Source: Levilactobacillus angrenensis
GTDB lineage: Bacteria; Bacillota; Bacilli; Lactobacillales; Lactobacillaceae
Assembly (NCBI RefSeq): GCF_003946085.1
Contig: NZ_RHOB01000007.1
Span: 1-64,000, forward strand
Reading direction: 5' to 3'
Length of the DNA stretch: 64,000 nt
Below, one piece after another: positions 9,248 to 60,463 of the stretch (position 1 is its first letter; each line of letters begins with the position of its first letter). A model generated the notes under the pieces. The model made no database searches. It was not told the origin of the DNA and was given only the letters and a program-made list of their open reading frames with translations. The translations under genes and the position numbers were made by a program.

Positions 9248-9270
9248 GCGTTGAAATGACAATGTCGACA

Positions 9271-9480
9271 CAACTGGCGTCTTTGAGACGCGGGTTTTCG
9301 GCTCAAAGCGAGGCCGAGACCGTCCCTCAGGCTCGGTCCGGTCCGCCCACCGCGTTCCAACCCATAGTTGGCGGACGGTAGGCGGCCAGCTCAAACTACG
9401 AAGCTGCAAACGACTAATTTTTACACCATAAGTCGCGTGGTGACAATGTTTCTAGCTGATTTTCATCTTTCAACATTTAG
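9271..9480 (+). repeat. Dispersed repeat, 3' half (copy B)
   Basis: Begins with the hairpin GCGTCTTTGAGACGC, runs through the GGCTCAAAGCGAGG block and the GACGGTAGGCGGCCAG block, and ends at the putative terminal inverted repeat CTTTCAACATTTAG (9467-9480). Nearly identical to 43600-43750 over about 150 bp. The 5' half of the element is missing. Confidence 0.75.
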
Positions 9481-23880: not shown

Positions 23881-24132
23881 ATCCGCCTTACCGTTCAGTA
23901 ACTATGGGATGGGATAAGCCCCTACCTGTGGCTGGCAGGGGGGCCCACCTGCAATAGGGAACGCCTCTAGCCCGAGAAACGGTCGTCCTGCTCGCTTGAA
24001 AGCCTGGCCTCCTTCGGCGAGATTGACGGATTCAGAAAAGTGTTTCGCACTAAGCGGTTGTGAGCAGCCGGTGTCTGGATCAAACCAGTTATTTTGTTAA
24101 CAGCCACCGTAGCGAACGGTAAGGCGGCCAAT
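23881..24132 (+). repeat. Dispersed repeat, internally deleted (copy C)
   Basis: Bounded by perfect 14-bp inverted repeats: CCGCCTTACCGTTC (23883-23896) and GAACGGTAAGGCGG (24114-24127). Inside, the blocks CTGTGGCTGGCAGGGGG, GGAACGCCTCTAGCC and GCTTGAAAGCCTGGC recall the 5' half of the family (43250-43340). It is the most diverged long copy. Confidence 0.6.
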
Positions 24133-24157
24133 GCGCCTCTATGTCGGTCTTCGAAGC

Positions 24158-28926: not shown

Positions 28927-29414
28927 ACGCAGCTAACGTTGGTGTGAGCCAGTTGCCTCCAGCTATCAGGGACTCCGCCTGCTATGGGGGGCGATTCCAG
29001 CCTGGAAAGCGGTCTGGAATCTCGCTTCAAAGCCTCGCACAACCCCGCGAGTCTCTGAAGTCGCCCCACGCTGTAGGCTGAGAAAGGACCTCAGCCAACA
29101 CCGTCGACACAGCTGGCTCCGTCCCTGGTAGCTTCCGGCAGGTAGTCGTTCGTAATGTAGCTGAGAGTTCGCCAAATATGAGCTTAGCCGTGGGAGTTTT
29201 CTTAGCGGCGGGCTGGGCCGTTTAGAAAACTGGCGTCTTTGAGACGCGGGCTTCGGCTCAAAGCGAGGTGTCGAGACCGTCTTTTGGCTCGACCCGGCCG
29301 CCCACCGCGATCCAGTCTCATATTTGGCGAACGGTAGGCGGCCAGCAACACCCCCAGGCAACAGAACACATCTACCCCCCTAGAATTTGGCGAACGGCAG
29401 GTGGCCAGCAACAG
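28927..29414 (+). repeat. Dispersed repeat, long copy (copy D)
   Basis: Contains the family blocks in order: TCCGCCTGCTATGGGG, the conserved hairpin CCCACGCTGTAGGCTGAG, CCTCAGCCAACACCGTCG, GCTGGCTCC, GAGAGTTCGCCAAATATG, GCGTCTTTGAGACGC and GCGAACGGTAGGCGGCCAG (ends 29345). The last block is repeated in a variant form at 29385-29412. Both termini of the element are missing. It fills most of the yacL–gltX gap; the open frames across it are shadows. Confidence 0.75.
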
Positions 29415-34434: not shown

Positions 34435-34447
34435 TTACATGGTGGTG

Positions 34448-34927
34448 GCTGGCCGCCTACCGTCCGCCAACTAAGGTGTGTGGTAGTAACCGTCGGCTTA
34501 ACCCCAGATGGTAGTTGATTTAGCGACTAGTCTCTAACGCATTGTTGTAGGCGGTCATCACCCCGCCGGAGGCAGCCAGGGTGGAGCCAGCTGTGGCGAC
34601 GGTGTTGGCTGAGGTTTTTTCTCAGCCTACAGCGTGGGACGACTTTGGAGATTTGCGGTTTCGGCAAGGCTTCAAAGCGAACCGGAAGCCCGTTCCTCAG
34701 GCTGGAGGTGTTCCCCATAGCAGGCGGAACCCTGGCTGACGCAGGCCTTGGTTTTACTAGTTCTAGTGGACAAAACGCTGTCGCTCGGGGAGTCAAGACA
34801 TTAATTCAACTTTCAACCTTTAGACAACAGCCTTTAACTGGAGAGTTTCGCCCACAAATGGCTAAACCGGCGATGGCTGACAACCACAACCATAGCCTAG
34901 AGCTTCGCGTAACGGTAGGCGGCCAGC
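34448..34927 (-). repeat. Dispersed repeat, composite copy with 16-bp inverted ends (copy E)
   Basis: GCTGGCCGCCTACCGT (34448-34463) and ACGGTAGGCGGCCAGC (34912-34927) are perfect inverted repeats 480 bp apart. From 34823 leftwards it is a minus-orientation copy: terminal word CTTTCAACCTTTAG (34810-34823), the GTGGACA block, CCCCATAGCAGGCGG, the GGCTGAG/CTCAGCC hairpin (34608-34626) and GGTGGAGCCAGCTG. Right of 34823 a short plus-orientation piece (GAGAGTTTCGCCC, then the 3' block) follows. The GCGTCTTTGAGACGC module is absent. Confidence 0.7.
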
Positions 34928-38194: not shown

Positions 38195-38314
38195 TTGTAT
38201 TTAATAGATCTACCTAAGACTCAGGTGGCCTAATGGTCTTAATTTCCTGCCGAGGCAGAAGTTTACTTAAACTTTTGACTCCTTATGTCTTGGTGGCATA
38301 GGGATTTTTTTATC
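38195..38314 (+). ncRNA. Ribosomal protein L10 leader
   Basis: Leader between the promoter and rplJ with the usual Firmicutes layout: a GACTCAGGTGG-type L10-binding kink-turn region, then CCTGCCGAGGCAG, and last an intrinsic terminator-like stem CCTTATG/CATAGGG (about 38281-38305) followed by seven Ts. L10(L12)4 binding is known in this family to favour termination, which balances L10 synthesis. Confidence 0.75.
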
Positions 38315-38343
38315 CCACCAAACTACTCCGGGAGGTGAACAAT

Positions 38344-40254: not shown

Positions 40255-40377
40255 ATGCTGGTAGCAGATACGGTTGTTGTTAAGTGGACAAATTAACCGC
40301 GTCCTTCAGCGGGGTTAAGATTGTTCTTTGCCAGCCAGCTTGCGATAATGAAGAACTACGGGGAGGGGTCAATCATT

Positions 40378-42987
40378 ATGGGGAAAAGATTGTGGGGGAG
40401 TATACAGAAACACCTAACGTTAATTAAAGGCATTTTTATCTTTTCGATTTTAATTTTTGTGATTCAAATGGTCGGGCACATTGCCCATGAGGTCAGTGGT
40501 GAACAGCTTCAGGCGGAACTGGCCTCCCTTGATACCGGGACGTTTATCCTACTTCTAGTCTGTGGCTTCATCGCCGTCTTGCCCATGTTGATCTATGATT
40601 TTTCAATCGTGCAATTTTTACCGGGCAAGTTTTCACGCGGTTATGTCATCCGTAGTGGGTGGACCACCAACACCTTTACCAATTTGGCTGGGATGGGCGG
40701 TCTATTGGGGGCCAGTTTGCGCGCGAATTTTTATGCCAAATCAGCCACCAAGAAACAGGTCGTCTACGCCATCTCGAAGATTGCGCTCTTCTTATTGGCT
40801 GGGCTGTCGCTGTTGTGTTGGGTAGCGTTGGTCTGCTTATTTGGGTTCGACATCGGCGCGCCATTCCGGGGTTACTGGTTTTGGCTACTGGGTGGTGGTC
40901 TGTATTTTCCAGTGGTCTTCATCTTTACCCGCATTAGCGACAGCGAATTCTTTCGCGACCTGACGTGGCGCCGTGAAGGGATCCTCATCCTCGGTTCCAG
41001 CTTGGAGTGGGGGAGCTGCGCGCTGTTCTTCCTCCTGATTGGCTGGGCCTTGCGGTTACCGATTCCGCTGGCAGCGGTCTTTCCCATGTTCGTCGTCGCT
41101 TCGGTGGCAGGGGTCGTCTCGATGATCCCCGGGGGCTTGGGTTCTTTTGACGTCTTCATGATCATTGGTTTAGGCTTTCTGGGCGTCAGTCGCGCGGATG
41201 CCACGGGCTGGCTGTTGTTGTATCGACTGTTCTACTACCTGCTCCCATTTGGCGTGGGGGTCGGCTTTTTCATCCACGATGTCGGTCGGCGGGTGAACGG
41301 GTTCTTAAATGGTCTGCCGGTGGCGACACTGCGGCGGGCGGCCCATTTATTCGTGACCATCTTCATGTACTTTTCGGGCGTGATGATGCTGCTGTTTGCC
41401 ACGATTCCGGACGTGGTCTTGGCTAACCGCTTTTACCTCCGTTTGGTGCCCTACATGTTTTACTTCCTGAGCCAAATCACCAACATCGTGATGGCTTTTC
41501 TACTGATTGGTCTGGCTCGCGGCGTAGGGGCGCGGGTGAAACGAGCCTACTGGCCGACTCTGGTCGTCTTGGTCGTGGCCATAGGCGTGACGTTGTGGCG
41601 GGAGAATTTCCCCGTCAGCCTCGCCATCTTACTGGGGCTAGTCCTGGCCTGCTTGATCTTTGCTCGGCCTGAGCTCTACCGAACTGGCTTTCACTACTCG
41701 TGGGGCGGCCTACTGGTGGACGGCGTGATTTACGTGGGGACCTTCGTGTTGTACACCATCTTGGGTCTTTCCAGTTTTCAAGGGAGCCATCACCGGCCAT
41801 TTTTGCCGAGCGCTTGGCTCCTGCCATCGACGCAGGTCTGGCTGACCGGTTTAGGGAGCCTACTAGCCGCGCTGCTGATTTTGATTGGCATTTACCGGTA
41901 CTTGGCCGCCCCCAAGCCACAATGGCTCCACGCGCCTTACGATGCGCCGAGGATGCGGGCAATTATTACCAAATTCGGCGGCAATGAAGTCAGCCACTTG
42001 GCCTTCTTGCGTGATAAACGGGCGTACTTCTACCAAGCTGACGGCGCGGACCAGCTGTTCTTGTTGTTCCGCCAAAAGGCCGACAAGTTGTTGGTGATGG
42101 GCGAGCCGATTGGTAATCAAGACTATTTAACGCCGGCATTGCAGGCCTTCATGCACGACGCCAATCAGGCCGGTTTGCGCCCCGTCTTTTACGAAATCAG
42201 TGAATCATTGACGTTGCGGCTCCATGAAATGGGCTTTGACTTCATCAAGGTGGGCGAAGAAGGGCACGTCGATCTGGCGACCTTCAGCCTCGCAGGCAAG
42301 GCGCACCGGGGAGAACGCGCCTTGATCAACAAGTTTAAACGCGAGGGGTACCAATTTGACCTGCTCCAACCGCCGCTGAGTGACGCGCAATTCCAGGAAC
42401 TCAAGGCCATCTCGGATTCGTGGCTGCATGACGAAACGGAAAAGGGCTTCTCCATGGGCTTCTTCGACCGAGACTACCTGAATGAGGCGCCAGTGGCGGT
42501 CATGAAAAATGCGGCCGGTGAGCTGGTGGCCTTTGCCAATCTCATGCCGACCGGTGACCATCGCATGACGTCCATCGACTTGATGCGGGCCAGCCGCGAG
42601 GCACCGTCTGGGATTATGGATGGTCTGTTCGTTTATCTATTTGAGACTTGCCGGGAGACCGGCTATCTGAGCTTTAACTTGGGGATGGCGCCGCTAGCCA
42701 ACGTCGGGGTCTCCGAGTTCAGCTTCATTGAAGAACGAGCTGCCCATTTGATCTATCAGTACGGTTCGAACTTCTACAGTTTCCAAGGCTTGCGTGCGTA
42801 CAAGGAAAAATACGTGACCGACTGGGAGCCGAAATACCTGGCTTACCGGCGTCGGCAGTCACTGATCTTCAGCATGCTCCAACTGATGTCCGTGATCAAT
42901 CAATGGTCACCGGTGGGCGTGCGGGTGGCCCCCAAGTGGTTCAGCCACTGGGTCACCGATGAGGTTCGTTGGCAAAATCATGGGTAA
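40378..42987 (+). CDS. mprF: Phosphatidylglycerol lysyltransferase MprF
   Basis: 869 residues. The N-terminal two thirds hold about 14 membrane helices (flippase part, with SMIPGGLGSFDVFMIIGLGFLGV); the cytosolic C-terminal part from about residue 520 is the DUF2156/GNAT-like lysyl transferase domain (FYEISESLTLRLHEMGFDFIKVGEEGHVDL, FSFIEERAAHLIYQYGSNFYSFQGLRAYKEKY). It moves Lys from Lys-tRNA onto phosphatidylglycerol and flips the product, lowering surface charge and raising resistance to cationic peptides. The ATG at 40378 follows GGGGAGGGG. Confidence 0.94.
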   Translation: MGKRLWGSIQKHLTLIKGIFIFSILIFVIQMVGHIAHEVSGEQLQAELASLDTGTFILLLVCGFIAVLPMLIYDFSIVQFLPGKFSRGYVIRSGWTTNTFTNLAGMGGLLGASLRANFYAKSATKKQVVYAISKIALFLLAGLSLLCWVALVCLFGFDIGAPFRGYWFWLLGGGLYFPVVFIFTRISDSEFFRDLTWRREGILILGSSLEWGSCALFFLLIGWALRLPIPLAAVFPMFVVASVAGVVSMIPGGLGSFDVFMIIGLGFLGVSRADATGWLLLYRLFYYLLPFGVGVGFFIHDVGRRVNGFLNGLPVATLRRAAHLFVTIFMYFSGVMMLLFATIPDVVLANRFYLRLVPYMFYFLSQITNIVMAFLLIGLARGVGARVKRAYWPTLVVLVVAIGVTLWRENFPVSLAILLGLVLACLIFARPELYRTGFHYSWGGLLVDGVIYVGTFVLYTILGLSSFQGSHHRPFLPSAWLLPSTQVWLTGLGSLLAALLILIGIYRYLAAPKPQWLHAPYDAPRMRAIITKFGGNEVSHLAFLRDKRAYFYQADGADQLFLLFRQKADKLLVMGEPIGNQDYLTPALQAFMHDANQAGLRPVFYEISESLTLRLHEMGFDFIKVGEEGHVDLATFSLAGKAHRGERALINKFKREGYQFDLLQPPLSDAQFQELKAISDSWLHDETEKGFSMGFFDRDYLNEAPVAVMKNAAGELVAFANLMPTGDHRMTSIDLMRASREAPSGIMDGLFVYLFETCRETGYLSFNLGMAPLANVGVSEFSFIEERAAHLIYQYGSNFYSFQGLRAYKEKYVTDWEPKYLAYRRRQSLIFSMLQLMSVINQWSPVGVRVAPKWFSHWVTDEVRWQNHG

Positions 42988-42992
42988 GTAAA

Positions 42993-43173
42993 TGAGAGTG
43001 GGACAAAAGGCGGTTAGGCGGCGAGCATTAAGGCTGATAACCGAATAATCCCGGGCTTGGATTGTTTGGTTATCAGTTTTAAGCGGAACCGGCTGCCTTT
43101 TGGCGCACGTTTCGGCCATTTAAAGTTGGCGCAAAATGGGTCTGGGATGTTTTGTCCCAGGCCCATTTTAATT
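42993..43173 (+). repeat. Second repeat family, long copy (F2), ending as mprF terminator
   Basis: Starts GAGAGTGGGACAAAA; contains the pair CTGATAACC/GGTTATCAG (about 43041-43079), GGCGCACGTTTCGGCCATTTAAAG and the hairpin TGGGTCTGGG (43137-43146), loop ATGTTTTGT, CCCAGGCCCA (43156-43165), followed by TTTTA. TGGGACAAAA (42999-43008) is also complementary to TTTTGTCCCA (43150-43159), giving an alternative long-range fold. It shares more than 60 bp with the dnaX leader. Confidence 0.7.
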
Positions 43174-43756
43174 TAGAGGATGAAAGTAGCATTAACGCGG
43201 TAGTTCCCGGAACGACAGTGTGCTGTCCACTAAAACTAGCGAAACCAGAGGCCTGCGTCAGCCAGGGTTCCGCCTGCTCTGGGGAACACCTCCAGCCTGA
43301 GGATTGGTCTTCCGGTTCGCTTGAAAGTCTGGCAAGGACCGCCAGACTCCCAAGTCGTCCCACGCTGTAGGCTGAGGCAAAACCTCAGCCAACACCGTCG
43401 TCACAGCTGGCTCCACCCTGGCTGCCTCCGGCGGGGTTGCTGATTATCAGCAACATGGCGTTAGGTAACAGTTGCTAAATCAGCTGTTATCTGGGGCTAA
43501 GCAGCTTGTTACTAGCACACACTCTAGTAGCCGAGAGTCCGTCAAATATGGGTTCAGCCGTGGGAGTTGCCTTAGCGGCGCGGTTCATGCCGCTTAGACA
43601 ACTGGCGTCTTTGAGACGTGGGTTTCCGGCTCAAAGCGAGGCCGAGACCGTTTCTCAGGCTCGGTCCGGTCCGCCCACCGCGTTCCAACCCATAGTTGGC
43701 GGACGGTAGGCGGCCAGCCCAAACTACGAAGCTGTCAACGACTAATTTTCACGCCA
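43174..43756 (+). repeat. Dispersed repeat, longest 5'-complete copy (copy F)
   Basis: Begins with TTTAGAGGATGAAAG (terminal repeat), then CATTAACGCGG, CTGTCCACTAAAACTAGCG, GTTCCGCCTGCTCTGGGG, the perfect hairpin GGCTGAGGCAAAACCTCAGCC (about 43363-43383; conserved with variable loops in copies D and E), CACAGCTGGCTCCACCCTGGC, GCTGATTATCAGC, GTCAAATATGGGTTCAGCC, GCGTCTTTGAGACG and GGACGGTAGGCGGCCAG. It runs into the 3' end of the LOG gene, whose stop lies in element sequence. No transposase frame. Confidence 0.75.
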
Positions 43757-44335
43757 TTAGTTGGTGTACTTGAATGGCAGCTGGTGGTGGAAATTGGCGA
43801 AGCCGCTAAAGATATCGTCGATAGTCGCCGCGTCGATGAACAGATTCATGTTTTCTTGGGGCGCAAAGCCAGCGTCACAGCTATTTTGCATCATCGTGAC
43901 CAACGGATCGTAGTAGTGGTCGATATTAAAGAGGGCGATGGGCTTTTGATGAACGTTGATCTGGCTCCAAGACAGCATGGTCGTGAACTCTTCAAAGGTG
44001 CCAAAGCCTCCTGGTAACACGATAAAGGCATCGGACTGGCGGAGCATTTCGTCCTTGCGTTCATCCATGGTGCTGGTCTCTAACAGGGTGGTGATGTCTG
44101 TCTTGGCCAGACCGAGTTCACTCAAGAAAGTCGGGATGATGCCGATGACCTGGCCCCCGGCCGCCATGGTGGCACTGGCCACCGCGCCCATTAAGCCTTC
44201 CTTACCGCCACCGTAGACCAGTGGATGACCATTGTCGGCTAAGTATTTGCCTAAAGCGTTCGTTTGTGCGAGAAATTGTGGATCGTACCCGTGGTTGGAC
44301 CCGCAGAAGACGCAGACATTTTTAATCGTTGGCAA
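43757..44335 (-). CDS. LOG-family (lysine-decarboxylase-like) nucleoside 5'-monophosphate phosphoribohydrolase
   Basis: 192 residues, Rossmann-like. VCVFCGSNHG at the start, VYGGGKEGLMGAVA (about 41-54), the catalytic Arg/Glu motif MDERKDEM and PGGFGTFEEF (about 110-119). Relatives hydrolyse AMP-type nucleotides, in plants and some bacteria releasing cytokinins; in lactobacilli a nucleotide salvage or damage-control role is inferred. TTG at 44335 is chosen because GGGGG lies nine bases upstream; a TTG five codons earlier overlaps that SD. Its last codons abut dispersed repeat copy F. Confidence 0.88.
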   Translation of the reverse strand: MPTIKNVCVFCGSNHGYDPQFLAQTNALGKYLADNGHPLVYGGGKEGLMGAVASATMAAGGQVIGIIPTFLSELGLAKTDITTLLETSTMDERKDEMLRQSDAFIVLPGGFGTFEEFTTMLSWSQINVHQKPIALFNIDHYYDPLVTMMQNSCDAGFAPQENMNLFIDAATIDDIFSGFANFHHQLPFKYTN

Positions 44336-44516
44336 GTAAAAGACCCCCAAAGTTTAGTGTTTAAAATTAGTATACCGCAAAAAGGATGGGCTACCACTTG
44401 GTTTTGGCCCTTAGTTAGGTATTTCCCCTAACCGGGTGACCTGAATGGTGGTGTGCCGCGCAACTGCGTATGCTGGGGAGCATGTAAAAGCTAATTAGTA
44501 GGGAGGATGACACGCA

Positions 44517-45419
44517 ATGAAGTTTAAGAAGATCGTGGTGGCTGGTGGCGGATCGCTGGGCAGTCAGATTGCTTATCAAATTGCCTATAGTGGGTTTCAG
44601 GTCGTTATTGAGGATGTCAATGCGGCGGCCATTGCTGCGACCAAACGGCGTTTAGCCACTTGGAACTTGTCCTATGCGCAAGCGAAGAACGCAACGCCCG
44701 CTGTCATCTTTGATACGAATGAACGGATCAGTTTTGCGACGGACCTGGAGACCGCGGTCGAGGATGCCGACCTGGTCATTGAGGCGGTACCCGAGGTCGC
44801 GACCATCAAGCAGGCATTCTACGCCGAACTGGCCAAAGTCGCGCCAGCACAGACCGTGTTTGCGACGAATTCCGCGACGATGGTGCCTAGCCAATTCGCG
44901 GCGATCACCGGGCGACCAGCCAAATTTTTGGCCATCCACTTCATGGACCATATTTGGGAAAATGGGTTGGCCGAGGTCATGGGGCATGCCGGCACTGATC
45001 CAGCGGTCTTCCACCGGGTCTGCCATTTCGTTCATCAGATTGGCCTCGTGCCGATTGAAGTCAAACGAGAGCACCCGGGCTACGTGCTCTCGGCCATGTT
45101 ACTGCCATTTGTGAATACGGCGTTAACGTTGTGGGTTCACGGGGTTGCGGAGCCCCAAGCCATCGACCGGGCCTGGATGATTGCGACTGGCGCGTCCATG
45201 GGGCCGTTTGGCATTTTAGATGAGATTGGTCTGCGCCAAGTCTACCAATTGTTGTTAGCGACCAGTGGCGAACCGGGCAAGGGGTATCTGGTAGATGTCG
45301 CCCACAAGCTCAAGTGTGAGCTGCTGGACCAACAAAAATTTGGCCAGGAAAATCAGCGGGGCTTTTACACTTATCCAGTGCCAGCGTTTGCGTCGGCCAA
45401 GTTCCTGACGGCGGGGTGA
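44517..45419 (+). CDS. 3-hydroxyacyl-CoA dehydrogenase-like NAD-binding protein
   Basis: 300 residues. N-terminal Rossmann domain with VAGGGSLGSQIAYQIAYSG (about 7-25) and the HAD signature region (IEAVPEVATIKQAFYAEL, TNSATMVPSQFA, AIHFMDHIWENGLAEVM), then the all-helical C-terminal domain (HPGYVLSAMLLPFVNTAL). Lactobacilli lack beta-oxidation, so it may act on a short 3-hydroxy acid or L-gulonate-like substrate. AGGGAGGATG precedes the ATG. The stop codon overlaps the first base pairs of dispersed repeat copy G, so the C-terminus may have been altered by it. Confidence 0.85.
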   Translation: MKFKKIVVAGGGSLGSQIAYQIAYSGFQVVIEDVNAAAIAATKRRLATWNLSYAQAKNATPAVIFDTNERISFATDLETAVEDADLVIEAVPEVATIKQAFYAELAKVAPAQTVFATNSATMVPSQFAAITGRPAKFLAIHFMDHIWENGLAEVMGHAGTDPAVFHRVCHFVHQIGLVPIEVKREHPGYVLSAMLLPFVNTALTLWVHGVAEPQAIDRAWMIATGASMGPFGILDEIGLRQVYQLLLATSGEPGKGYLVDVAHKLKCELLDQQKFGQENQRGFYTYPVPAFASAKFLTAG

Positions 45420-45524
45420 CGGTCGGCGGCCAGTCCGCACTACGAAGCTGTAAACGCCTGATTTTTACGCCACGAGTCGTGTGGTGGCAATACTCCTAGC
45501 TGATTTTCATTTTTAAACCTTTAA
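45418..45524 (+). repeat. Dispersed repeat, 3' end (copy G)
   Basis: Starts GACGGTCGGCGGCCAG, then ACTACGAAGCTGTAAACG, CCTAGCTGATTTTCAT and the degenerate terminal repeat TTTTTAAACCTTTAAA. Aligns with the last 107 bp of copy B. Confidence 0.7.
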
Positions 45525-50529: not shown

Positions 50530-50630
50530 TGCCGTTAAGGCCTTGAAGCAAGGGTGGGCTTACGAATCGTGTCAGGTCCGGAAGGAAGCAGCACTAAGTT
50601 TGTTTCGCTTTGTGCTTCAAGTTTATGAGA
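50530..50630 (+). ncRNA. ffs: Signal recognition particle RNA (4.5S type)
   Basis: The invariant domain IV core GTCAGGTCCGGAAGGAAGCAGCAC occupies 50570-50593, with the GGAA loop and the asymmetric internal loop that bind Ffh. CCTTGAAGCA (50541-50550) pairs with TGCTTCAAG (50613-50621), closing a single long hairpin of the small bacterial type without an Alu domain. Ends estimated from promoter and pairing. Confidence 0.93.
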
Positions 50631-54338: not shown

Positions 54339-54805
54339 GCTAAAGATTGAAAGATAAAAATCAGTTGATCATGCGACTCATGTGTTAAGTCTGATCGTCC
54401 ATGGTTTTGTAGCGTGAACTGGCCGCCTACCGTTCGTCAAAGATGGGTTGGAACGCGGTGGGCGGACCGGTCGAGCCAAAGTGCGGTCTCGACCTCGCTT
54501 TGAGCCGAAAACCACGTCTCAAAGACGCCAGTTCCCTAAACGCCCAAGACCGCCGTTAAGGGAACTCCCACGGCTGAACCCATATTTGACGAACTCTCGG
54601 CTACAAGACTGATAGTCAGCAACGGTTAGTTTAATTCGCGATAACAACTGATTTGTCAGTTGTCTTGGGGTTAACGTCGTATTTCGGATAGCTACCAATT
54701 TGCCGGAATCCCTGACTGACGCAGGCTCCTGGTTTCGCTGATTTTAGTGGACAGAATACTGACGTTTCAAGAAGTAACGCGTTAATTTTGCTTTCAATAC
54801 TTTAG
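54339..54805 (-). repeat. MITE-like dispersed element, most complete copy (copy H)
   Basis: Left end GCTAAAGATTGAAAG (54339-54353) and right end CTTTCAATACTTTAG (54791-54805) are inverted repeats with one indel. TATCAA flanks it on both sides (54333-54338 and 54806-54811), as a 6-bp target duplication would. Inside, in minus orientation: GTCCACTAAAATCAGCG, CCTGCGTCAGTCAGGGATTCC, GTTGCTGACTATCAG, GAGAGTTCGTCAAATATGGG, GCGTCTTTGAGACG and ACGAACGGTAGGCGGCCAG. The CACAGCTGGCTCC block of other copies is absent. No transposase is encoded. Confidence 0.75.
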
Positions 54806-60361: not shown

Positions 60362-60463
60362 GTACCTGTGGCTGCCAGGAGTTCTGCCTGCTATGGGGCT
60401 GGGAACTGTCCGCCTACCGCGGCGCACCAGCCTGGAATTTCGCGCAACGGAAGGCGGCCAATA
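60362..60463 (+). repeat. Dispersed repeat, short copy (copy I)
   Basis: CTGTGGCTGCCAGGAGTTCTGCCTGCTATGGGG-type 5' words, TCCGCCTACCGCGGCGC (about 60409-60425) and, inverted, GCGCAACGGAAGGCGGCC (60442-60459). A collapsed copy in the rimI–tsaD gap. Confidence 0.55.

Follow-up and report, generated by a model that had tools for sequence, protein, structure and literature searches.

The window analyzed here, a stretch of 64,000 nucleotides from a Levilactobacillus angrenensis contig (NZ_RHOB01000007.1), carries a dispersed repeat whose near-complete representative, termed copy F, has as neighbors mprF (40321-42987, plus strand) and a TIGR00730-family gene (43757-44350, minus strand). The left terminal repeat of copy F (43173-43186) is damaged by 3 mismatches. 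The features of copy F and of the eight other places with the family are as follows, R1 being a covariance model built from unit 1 alone.

43132-43174, plus: terminator-like hairpin and T tract directly preceding copy F, read by eye and unscored in a scan
43173-43766, plus: copy F, element positions 1-598 of 640, right end lost
43252-43432, minus: unit 1 of copy F, folding on the minus strand; 184 bits with R1, a score that is not independent, copy F being one of the 56 sequences behind the model
43530-43710, plus: unit 2 of copy F, folding on the plus strand; R1, 60 bits, E 1e-14, full model length
1276-1301, plus: copy A, short remnant of the end of unit 2; blastn, 92% over 26 nt, E 2e-4; weak
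9270-9479, plus: copy B, right end together with the latter half of unit 2; blastn, profile
23924-24010, plus: copy C, unit 1 remnant; blastn, profile, and a weak R1 match at 23925-24155, minus
28939-29347, plus: copy D, both units without the ends (unit 1 at 28956-29139, minus; unit 2 at 29160-29338, plus); profile, R1
34437-34823, minus: copy E, retaining the left end and its terminal repeat, unit 1 (34565-34745, plus), and a small fragment from the end of unit 2; profile, R1
45416-45522, plus: copy G, right end; profile
54341-54798, minus: copy H, both ends and unit 2 (54426-54601, minus) retained, unit 1 deleted; profile, R1
60365-60420, minus: copy I, heavily deleted remnant; R1, 19.5 bits, E 7e-4; weak

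A sequence-only reading of the window had described nine copies that share blocks in a fixed order and have lost different ones, and all nine places indeed carry the family. A blastn search with F as the query matched B, C, D, E, G, and H plus a 26-nt piece at A, and a profile built on 40 copies recovered B to H. Copy A is weak because its match spans 26 nt, and copy I because it was detected by the covariance model alone. Positions 42990-43176, adjoining F, belong to a second, unrelated dispersed repeat of ∼180 nt, which contains GAGAGTGGGACAAAAGG and ends in a terminator-like hairpin; it gave 10 matches (self included) in a contiguous 424-kb Levilactobacillus sample and another 9 matches in the named loci, and pieces of it flank several element copies. 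The window also holds an L10 leader (38195-38319) and a small SRP RNA (50540-50626), both ordinary.

The repeat is abundant. In the genome of the window, a search with F that scored the best 40 of 278 candidates yielded at least 39 further copies (513-589 bp, 84-88% identity, E from 4.5e-213) plus one 33-bp piece, and one 18-mer of the element had 158 sites at ≤3 mismatches, versus 23 for the reversed control. The profile located 47 loci in the 424-kb sample, 10 of them ≥600 bp, for a total of 13.8 kb, or ∼3% of the sample; by proportion, this extrapolates to ∼300 to 310 loci per 2.8-Mb genome.

Alignment of 40 copies (F included) with their flanks gave a consensus of 640 nt with ends that are sharp in most copies. 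Intact copies are bounded by 14-bp terminal inverted repeats (TIRs), CTRAAGGTTGAAAG on the left and its complement on the right, and the genome contains 138 such sites at ≤1 mismatch, versus 5 in the control. Target duplications were perfect at 7 or 8 bp in 13 of the 24 own copies having both TIRs within 660 nt, with a mean identity over these 24 of 0.65 at 7 bp (0.36 when shuffled). The consensus is non-coding, with stops in all six frames, which together with variable loop lengths rules out a coding element. With its TIRs, target duplications, and short non-coding sequence, the element resembles a MITE-type non-coding DNA transposon. We found no autonomous relative or transposase bounded by element TIRs in the stretches examined; TIR pairs 2.0 and 3.9 kb apart in the window genome and 3.7 kb apart in another genome, G320 (locus L152), had element copies at one or both ends. 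A known RNA was excluded, as Rfam release 15 gave no gathering-threshold match in the window repeats and the best sub-threshold scores had E values of 0.16 (F region) and 0.18 (one solo unit). A phage or plasmid passenger was rejected for lack of a blastn match in either collection, and one strict pattern with 28 fixed bases had 0 exact matches in viral contigs. No sigma-70-like promoter was detected in the two copies scanned (F and one from G320).

We also looked into the genomic positions of the elements. According to a crude ORF rule, 27 of the 46 elements placed in the 424-kb sample lie between tandem genes, 15 between convergent genes, and 4 between divergent genes, compared with 160, 47, and 45 of the 252 background intergenic regions. 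Within tandem pairs, the element was at a median of 84 bp from the upstream stop and 189 bp from the downstream start. Many elements abut terminator-like T tracts (F by eye), and the flanks of other copies resemble the hairpin and T tract next to F. A terminator reading towards the element was present within 70 nt at 9 of 24 insertion sites, versus 1.8% of 400 random positions, a control unmatched for intergenic position; shifting the sites by 100 or 200 nt left 1/24 and 0/24, and a terminator reading away was seen at 10/24. These figures are suggestive of an insertion target often near the T tract behind a terminator. In L. brevis ATCC 14869, the F and E sites have no profile match, and the matches to the two flanks are separated by 213 and 144 bp, versus 857 and 744 in the window. 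The F region of genome G030 holds an element copy of another subtype, and two more intergenic regions common to genomes carry elements in opposite orientation, so that intergenic regions common to genomes appear to have received independent insertions. The F and G030 copies were considered as orthologues for testing selection in place and set aside, since they look like different subtypes.

We then analyzed the interior of the element. Conservation peaks at consensus positions 80-262 (unit 1) and 355-546 (unit 2), and for both units RNAalifold predicted a closing stem, a long second hairpin, and a third hairpin of the type CUUUGGAG/CUUCAAAG; unit 1 alone has a predicted fourth hairpin with a conserved GACCG...CAGGCU. 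The folds, minus-strand for unit 1 and plus-strand for unit 2, were predicted from separate sets for each unit, as mixed alignments of 83 and 68 rows folded poorly. A long-range helix, GGGAC/GUCCC, was read by eye. Although built from unit 1 alone, R1 matched unit 2 over its full length on the opposite strand, with an E value of 1e-14 in F and 1e-10 to 1e-15 elsewhere, which indicates that the two units are diverged copies, in inverted orientation, of one multibranched unit of ∼180 nt. Their 5' ends face the center of the element and the units point outward, so transcription entering from either side would always give one sense unit.

The sequence-only reading had proposed to look for covariation above background, and it proved to be far in excess of shuffle and slide controls in both units. 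Neither control amounts to a phylogenetic null, and the alignments, which comprised 56 of 135 unit-1 places and 40 of 114 unit-2 places picked for species spread, had also served to predict the structures. In unit 1 (56 sequences), 42 of 49 pairs change on both sides, in 413 cells versus 113 when shuffled; 96.2% of the cells are paired, and the covariation score is 0.468, versus 0.189 shuffled and ≤0.077 slid. In unit 2 (40 sequences), 27 of 43 pairs change on both sides (178 cells versus 48), 97.2% of the cells are paired, and the score is 0.348, versus 0.153 and ≤0.067. None of 500 shuffles matched the observed score of either unit; the number of pair types in unit 2 was just modestly above shuffles (56 versus 50.6, equalled in 4/500). 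A stronger argument than the controls is that the effect is so large and that the fold has survived between units 1 and 2. As for the individual hairpins named earlier, GGCTGAG/CTCAGCC is real and covaries (helix 3, 12/12 pairs), with variants AGCTGGC/GCCAGCT and GTCCGGG/CCCGGGC, whereas GCGTC/GACGC is merely a local palindrome: its pairs are broken in 0 to 12 of 40 sequences, while every pair of the overlapping CUUUGAG/CUCAAAG helix is formed in 39 or 40 of 40.

A DNA cruciform would show G-T and A-C mismatches equally, and we therefore compared G-U and A-C cells on the sense strand, using Watson-Crick-only structures for seven sets. G-U exceeded A-C in six of them: unit 1 of the window genome (69 versus 24; column test, P = 0.05) and of other species (92 versus 27; P = 0.008), unit 2 of the window genome (69 versus 40; P = 0.18, not significant), units of genome G342 (19 versus 6), and units 1 and 2 of G320 (37 versus 21 and 37 versus 20). 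Unit 2 of other species leaned the opposite way (27 versus 34; P = 0.56, not significant). With RNA-folded structures, which lean to G-U, the counts were 110:24 (29 versus 5 pairs; P = 4e-5) and 43:12 (16 versus 6 pairs; P = 0.05). The excess on the sense strand implies that selection sees one strand, as RNA or as strand-specific single-stranded DNA, and this one-strand signal together with the covariation supports the earlier proposal that structure matters beyond simple transposition.

Where this selection acts was examined by comparing copies. Between copies of the window genome, the units are steady at 8 to 10% divergence, while the left end goes from 9% in the closest pairs to 42% in the most distant ones, the divergence classes having been defined by ends and spacer, a choice that introduces bias into the closest class. 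In the window genome, where 3 of 40 copies with unalignable ends were dropped, singletons counted 12 G-U and 12 A-C in unit 1 and 12 and 8 in unit 2, versus 7 and 0 and 6 and 3 for shared variants. In G320, singletons counted 9 G-U and 10 A-C in unit 1 and 6 and 10 in unit 2, versus 8 and 3 and 9 and 4 for shared variants. Summed over both units and both genomes, shared variants give 30 G-U and 10 A-C and singletons 39 and 40, sums which mix RNA-folded structures and a threshold of 3 copies (window genome) with Watson-Crick-only structures and a threshold of 2 (G320); singletons come from ∼40 copies of hundreds and may be common to unsampled copies. A G-U bias in shared but not in private variants fits selection on the lineage that spreads, with copies decaying once inserted. 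Some constraint may act on copies in place, as singleton densities per 100 in the window genome are 1.58 and 1.81 in the ends and 0.78 and 0.65 in the units, about twofold higher in the ends, and unit 2 singletons are rarer at paired sites (0.51 versus 0.99 per 100). In G342, 22 of 44 singleton-bearing cells are Watson-Crick, i.e., compensated. Thus, neutral decay across all blocks, which the sequence-only reading had taken as evidence against a structural role, holds in part: inserted copies of the window genome decay almost evenly, but the lineage that spreads retains the fold. Selection on the fold appears to act during spread rather than clearly in every copy.

The missing blocks are internal deletions. 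Five deletion junctions recur, each at 2 to 4 of the 35 loci inspected, 20 of which were picked from TIR sites; one junction cuts out nearly all of unit 2 and another unit 1. For 12 of 13 such loci, the most similar copy across the retained positions does not have the same junction, and so the same deletions probably occurred repeatedly and independently. Loci L223 and L228, with the same junction and 7.9% apart (rank 5-6 of 52), may be an exception. Some deleted forms keep both TIRs and target duplications (e.g., L222, L224, L228, L231, and L239), and these forms, with the closeness of L223 and L228, suggest that loss of units need not end movement altogether. Breaks share 3 to 5 bases, against a background mean of 3.9. 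It looks as if folded DNA guides the recurrent deletions. In the window genome, the same junctions were seen across different subfamilies (L223, L228, and L235; L229, window copy E, and C61:64627-65096).

The distribution of the element and of its unit differed between searches. The top matches to the MprF protein of the window, up to 96%, belong to named Levilactobacillus genomes. A blastn search with F found the element in 27 of 35 Levilactobacillus genomes (own included), and one with the consensus found it in 24 of 301 family genomes, covering 4 of 40 genera. R1, run with stricter Infernal filters, detected the unit in 105 of 397 Lactobacillaceae genomes (10 of 40 genera, own included) and in 0 of 397 other genomes drawn from the phylum. 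TIR sites per genome peak at 142 (G008). Three Levilactobacillus genomes (G014, G016, and G029) have more than 250 first-look candidates each, with over 260 in G014 and G029, yet 2, 16, and 3 TIR sites, and may thus carry other element ends. G320 has 138 TIR sites and an element version of ∼545 nt, with perfect target duplications in 15 of 19 copies selected for having both TIRs listed.

In genera g4 and g20, units stand solo or in divergent pairs, and no TIR pair bounds them at ≤2 mismatches (18 loci). The unit thus either predates the TIR element or exists independently of it. No target duplications were definable for solo units. The single 2.7-Mb contig of G342 has 150 scored unit matches; in position and strand analyses covering 145 of them, all 11 neighbors within 900 nt were divergent, where ∼7 of any orientation were expected. 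Below 1.35 Mb, 43 units are on the minus and 25 on the plus strand, and above it 46 are on the plus and 31 on the minus strand. In the 23 G342 units used for flank and singleton analyses, conservation starts at the CTA/GCCGGA boundary and stops at CGGC, and the flanks are mostly unrelated, some with a common upstream leader. Genome G168 has 7 units in all. Two of them (L180, 2001-2175 and 3093-3267) are solo units 1.1 kb apart and 92% identical over 196 nt, each just after a terminator-like sequence and with otherwise unrelated flanks; this pair gives the impression of copying with RNA-defined ends. Three g20 species keep a solo unit at one locus, downstream of yhgE/pip, with most of the intergenic flank unalignable; in 2 of 3 species pairs, the unit is 85 to 89% and the gene 79 to 82% identical, and the third pair gave 78.7% in a joint alignment.

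We propose a non-autonomous mobile element with a structured RNA at its core, the intact fold of which aids the spread of the element, a reading to which we give a probability of about 0.47. The unit would act as RNA, with strand-specific single-stranded DNA as the less likely form, and its intact fold would aid spread, for example by being what a trans-acting protein recognises. Copies losing the fold would mostly stop multiplying and decay where inserted. The TIRs and target duplications point to a transposase acting in trans, by which the TIR form would move as DNA, and a target often near a T tract behind a terminator would be a harmless site. We prefer an RNA that helps the element to spread because the fold persists in the lineage but is lost from single copies, and because no large families of deleted forms were seen among the copies examined. 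Why a DNA transposon keeps two RNA folds is a real puzzle. Weighing against the proposal are the lack of a sigma-70-like promoter in the two copies scanned and of a transposase with these TIRs in the stretches examined, the deleted forms that keep TIRs and target duplications, the signs of constraint or function in place, and the one strand set of seven that leans to A-C.

The main rival, which we judge somewhat unlikely, is a host-useful structured RNA acting in place (a 3'-end structure, a stabiliser, or a small RNA behind terminators), with the TIR element having copied a host RNA gene. The g20 and G342 data favor it: the yhgE/pip unit outlasts its flank and, in two species pairs, is better conserved than the gene, and private changes are often compensated in G342. 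The low copy number in G168 and the excess of elements at convergent over divergent sites are also in its favor. It accounts poorly for private pair changes without G-U bias in the window genome and G320, the even divergence of close copies, the scatter of at least 145 units over G342, where most flanks of the 23 inspected are unrelated, and orientations that differ at two shared sites.

We consider it quite unlikely that the ∼180-nt RNA is itself the spreading unit, a bacterial counterpart of SINEs, copied or guided as RNA with a trans-acting protein and packaged as a divergent TIR pair in some genera. On this reading, solo copies in some genera would have sharp RNA-defined ends, and a divergent pair within a TIR transposon would give one intact RNA upon transcription from either side.

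Very unlikely, in our view, are strand-specific single-stranded DNA hairpins recognised while the DNA is replicated or transferred, in the manner of REP elements or IS200/IS605. G-T is better tolerated than A-C in single-stranded DNA too, the units form inverted pairs as REPs do in REPINs, and those of G342 favor opposite strands by contig half (89/145, the halves not being set by a located origin). Against this, the window genome, G342, and G168 all have the repeat and lack a Y1 transposase, the 7- to 8-bp duplications of the TIR form are unlike the Y1 mechanism, and the fold is multibranched and ∼180 nt long. An ordinary MITE whose inner palindromes are unselected mutational by-products would fit the TIRs, target duplications, non-coding sequence, and nearly even decay after insertion, but this hardly credible reading is already contradicted by covariation in both units across genera that 0/500 shuffles equal, by the one-strand bias, by the same fold in diverged units 1 and 2, and by units without bounding TIRs.

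Returning to the proposed mobile element with a structured RNA, we compared it with known systems. Bacterial MITEs, BOX, RUP, and ERIC are short and non-coding, MITEs with TIRs and target duplications, and their blocks vary between copies; the element differs from them in an interior under structural selection that is common to TIR-less solo units, and no parent transposon was found in the stretches examined. Group IIC introns insert behind terminators, but the window has no Rfam group II match and the element has TIRs and target duplications. GOLLD, which takes its name from Lactobacillales, ROOL, and OLE are described as structured bacterial RNAs that are large and conserved (PMC12286853); unlike these, the element has no Rfam match and hundreds of dispersed copies. 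We recognised no paper on this repeat in one open-access library, a scope that leaves most subscription papers outside. The single Lactobacillus repeat family in the portion of PMC2267715 consulted comes from L. johnsonii.

A fold without an Rfam entry thus lies in an element covering ∼3% of the 424-kb Levilactobacillus sample and occurs in about a quarter of the sampled Lactobacillaceae. If the fold aids spreading, this would be a bacterial mobile element that depends on RNA, whereas a fold serving the host would be a major uncharacterised RNA of food bacteria.

The systems closest in kind are structured dispersed repeats such as REPINs and bcr elements. In the account of PMC6542083 drawn on here, bcr1-bcr18 of the Bacillus cereus group are dispersed, mostly chromosomal, lineage-restricted repeats of 100 to 400 bp with mobile features, their mobility being linked to a TTTAT motif. 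That account describes no inverted pair of one RNA unit for bcr, and R1 gave no match in the 397 genomes sampled from the rest of the phylum. REPINs/BIMEs, as outlined in the cited part of PMC3116915, have many extragenic copies, occur as singlets and inverted doublets, form predicted hairpins, and are non-autonomous, and REP units measure 20 to 40 bp in that of PMC3733652. The element is likewise extragenic, single or in inverted pairs, hairpin-forming, and non-autonomous, but its unit is ∼180 nt long and multibranched, with 49 consensus pairs, and its paired form has TIRs and 7- to 8-bp duplications. Mobilisation by RAYT was rejected, since PF01797 (Y1/RAYT) is absent from the window genome, G342, and G168 (1 each in G025 and G320). 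What is new to us, relative to these nearest relatives in kind, is the large covarying unit, the inverted RNA pair within a TIR element, and the TIR-less solo forms.
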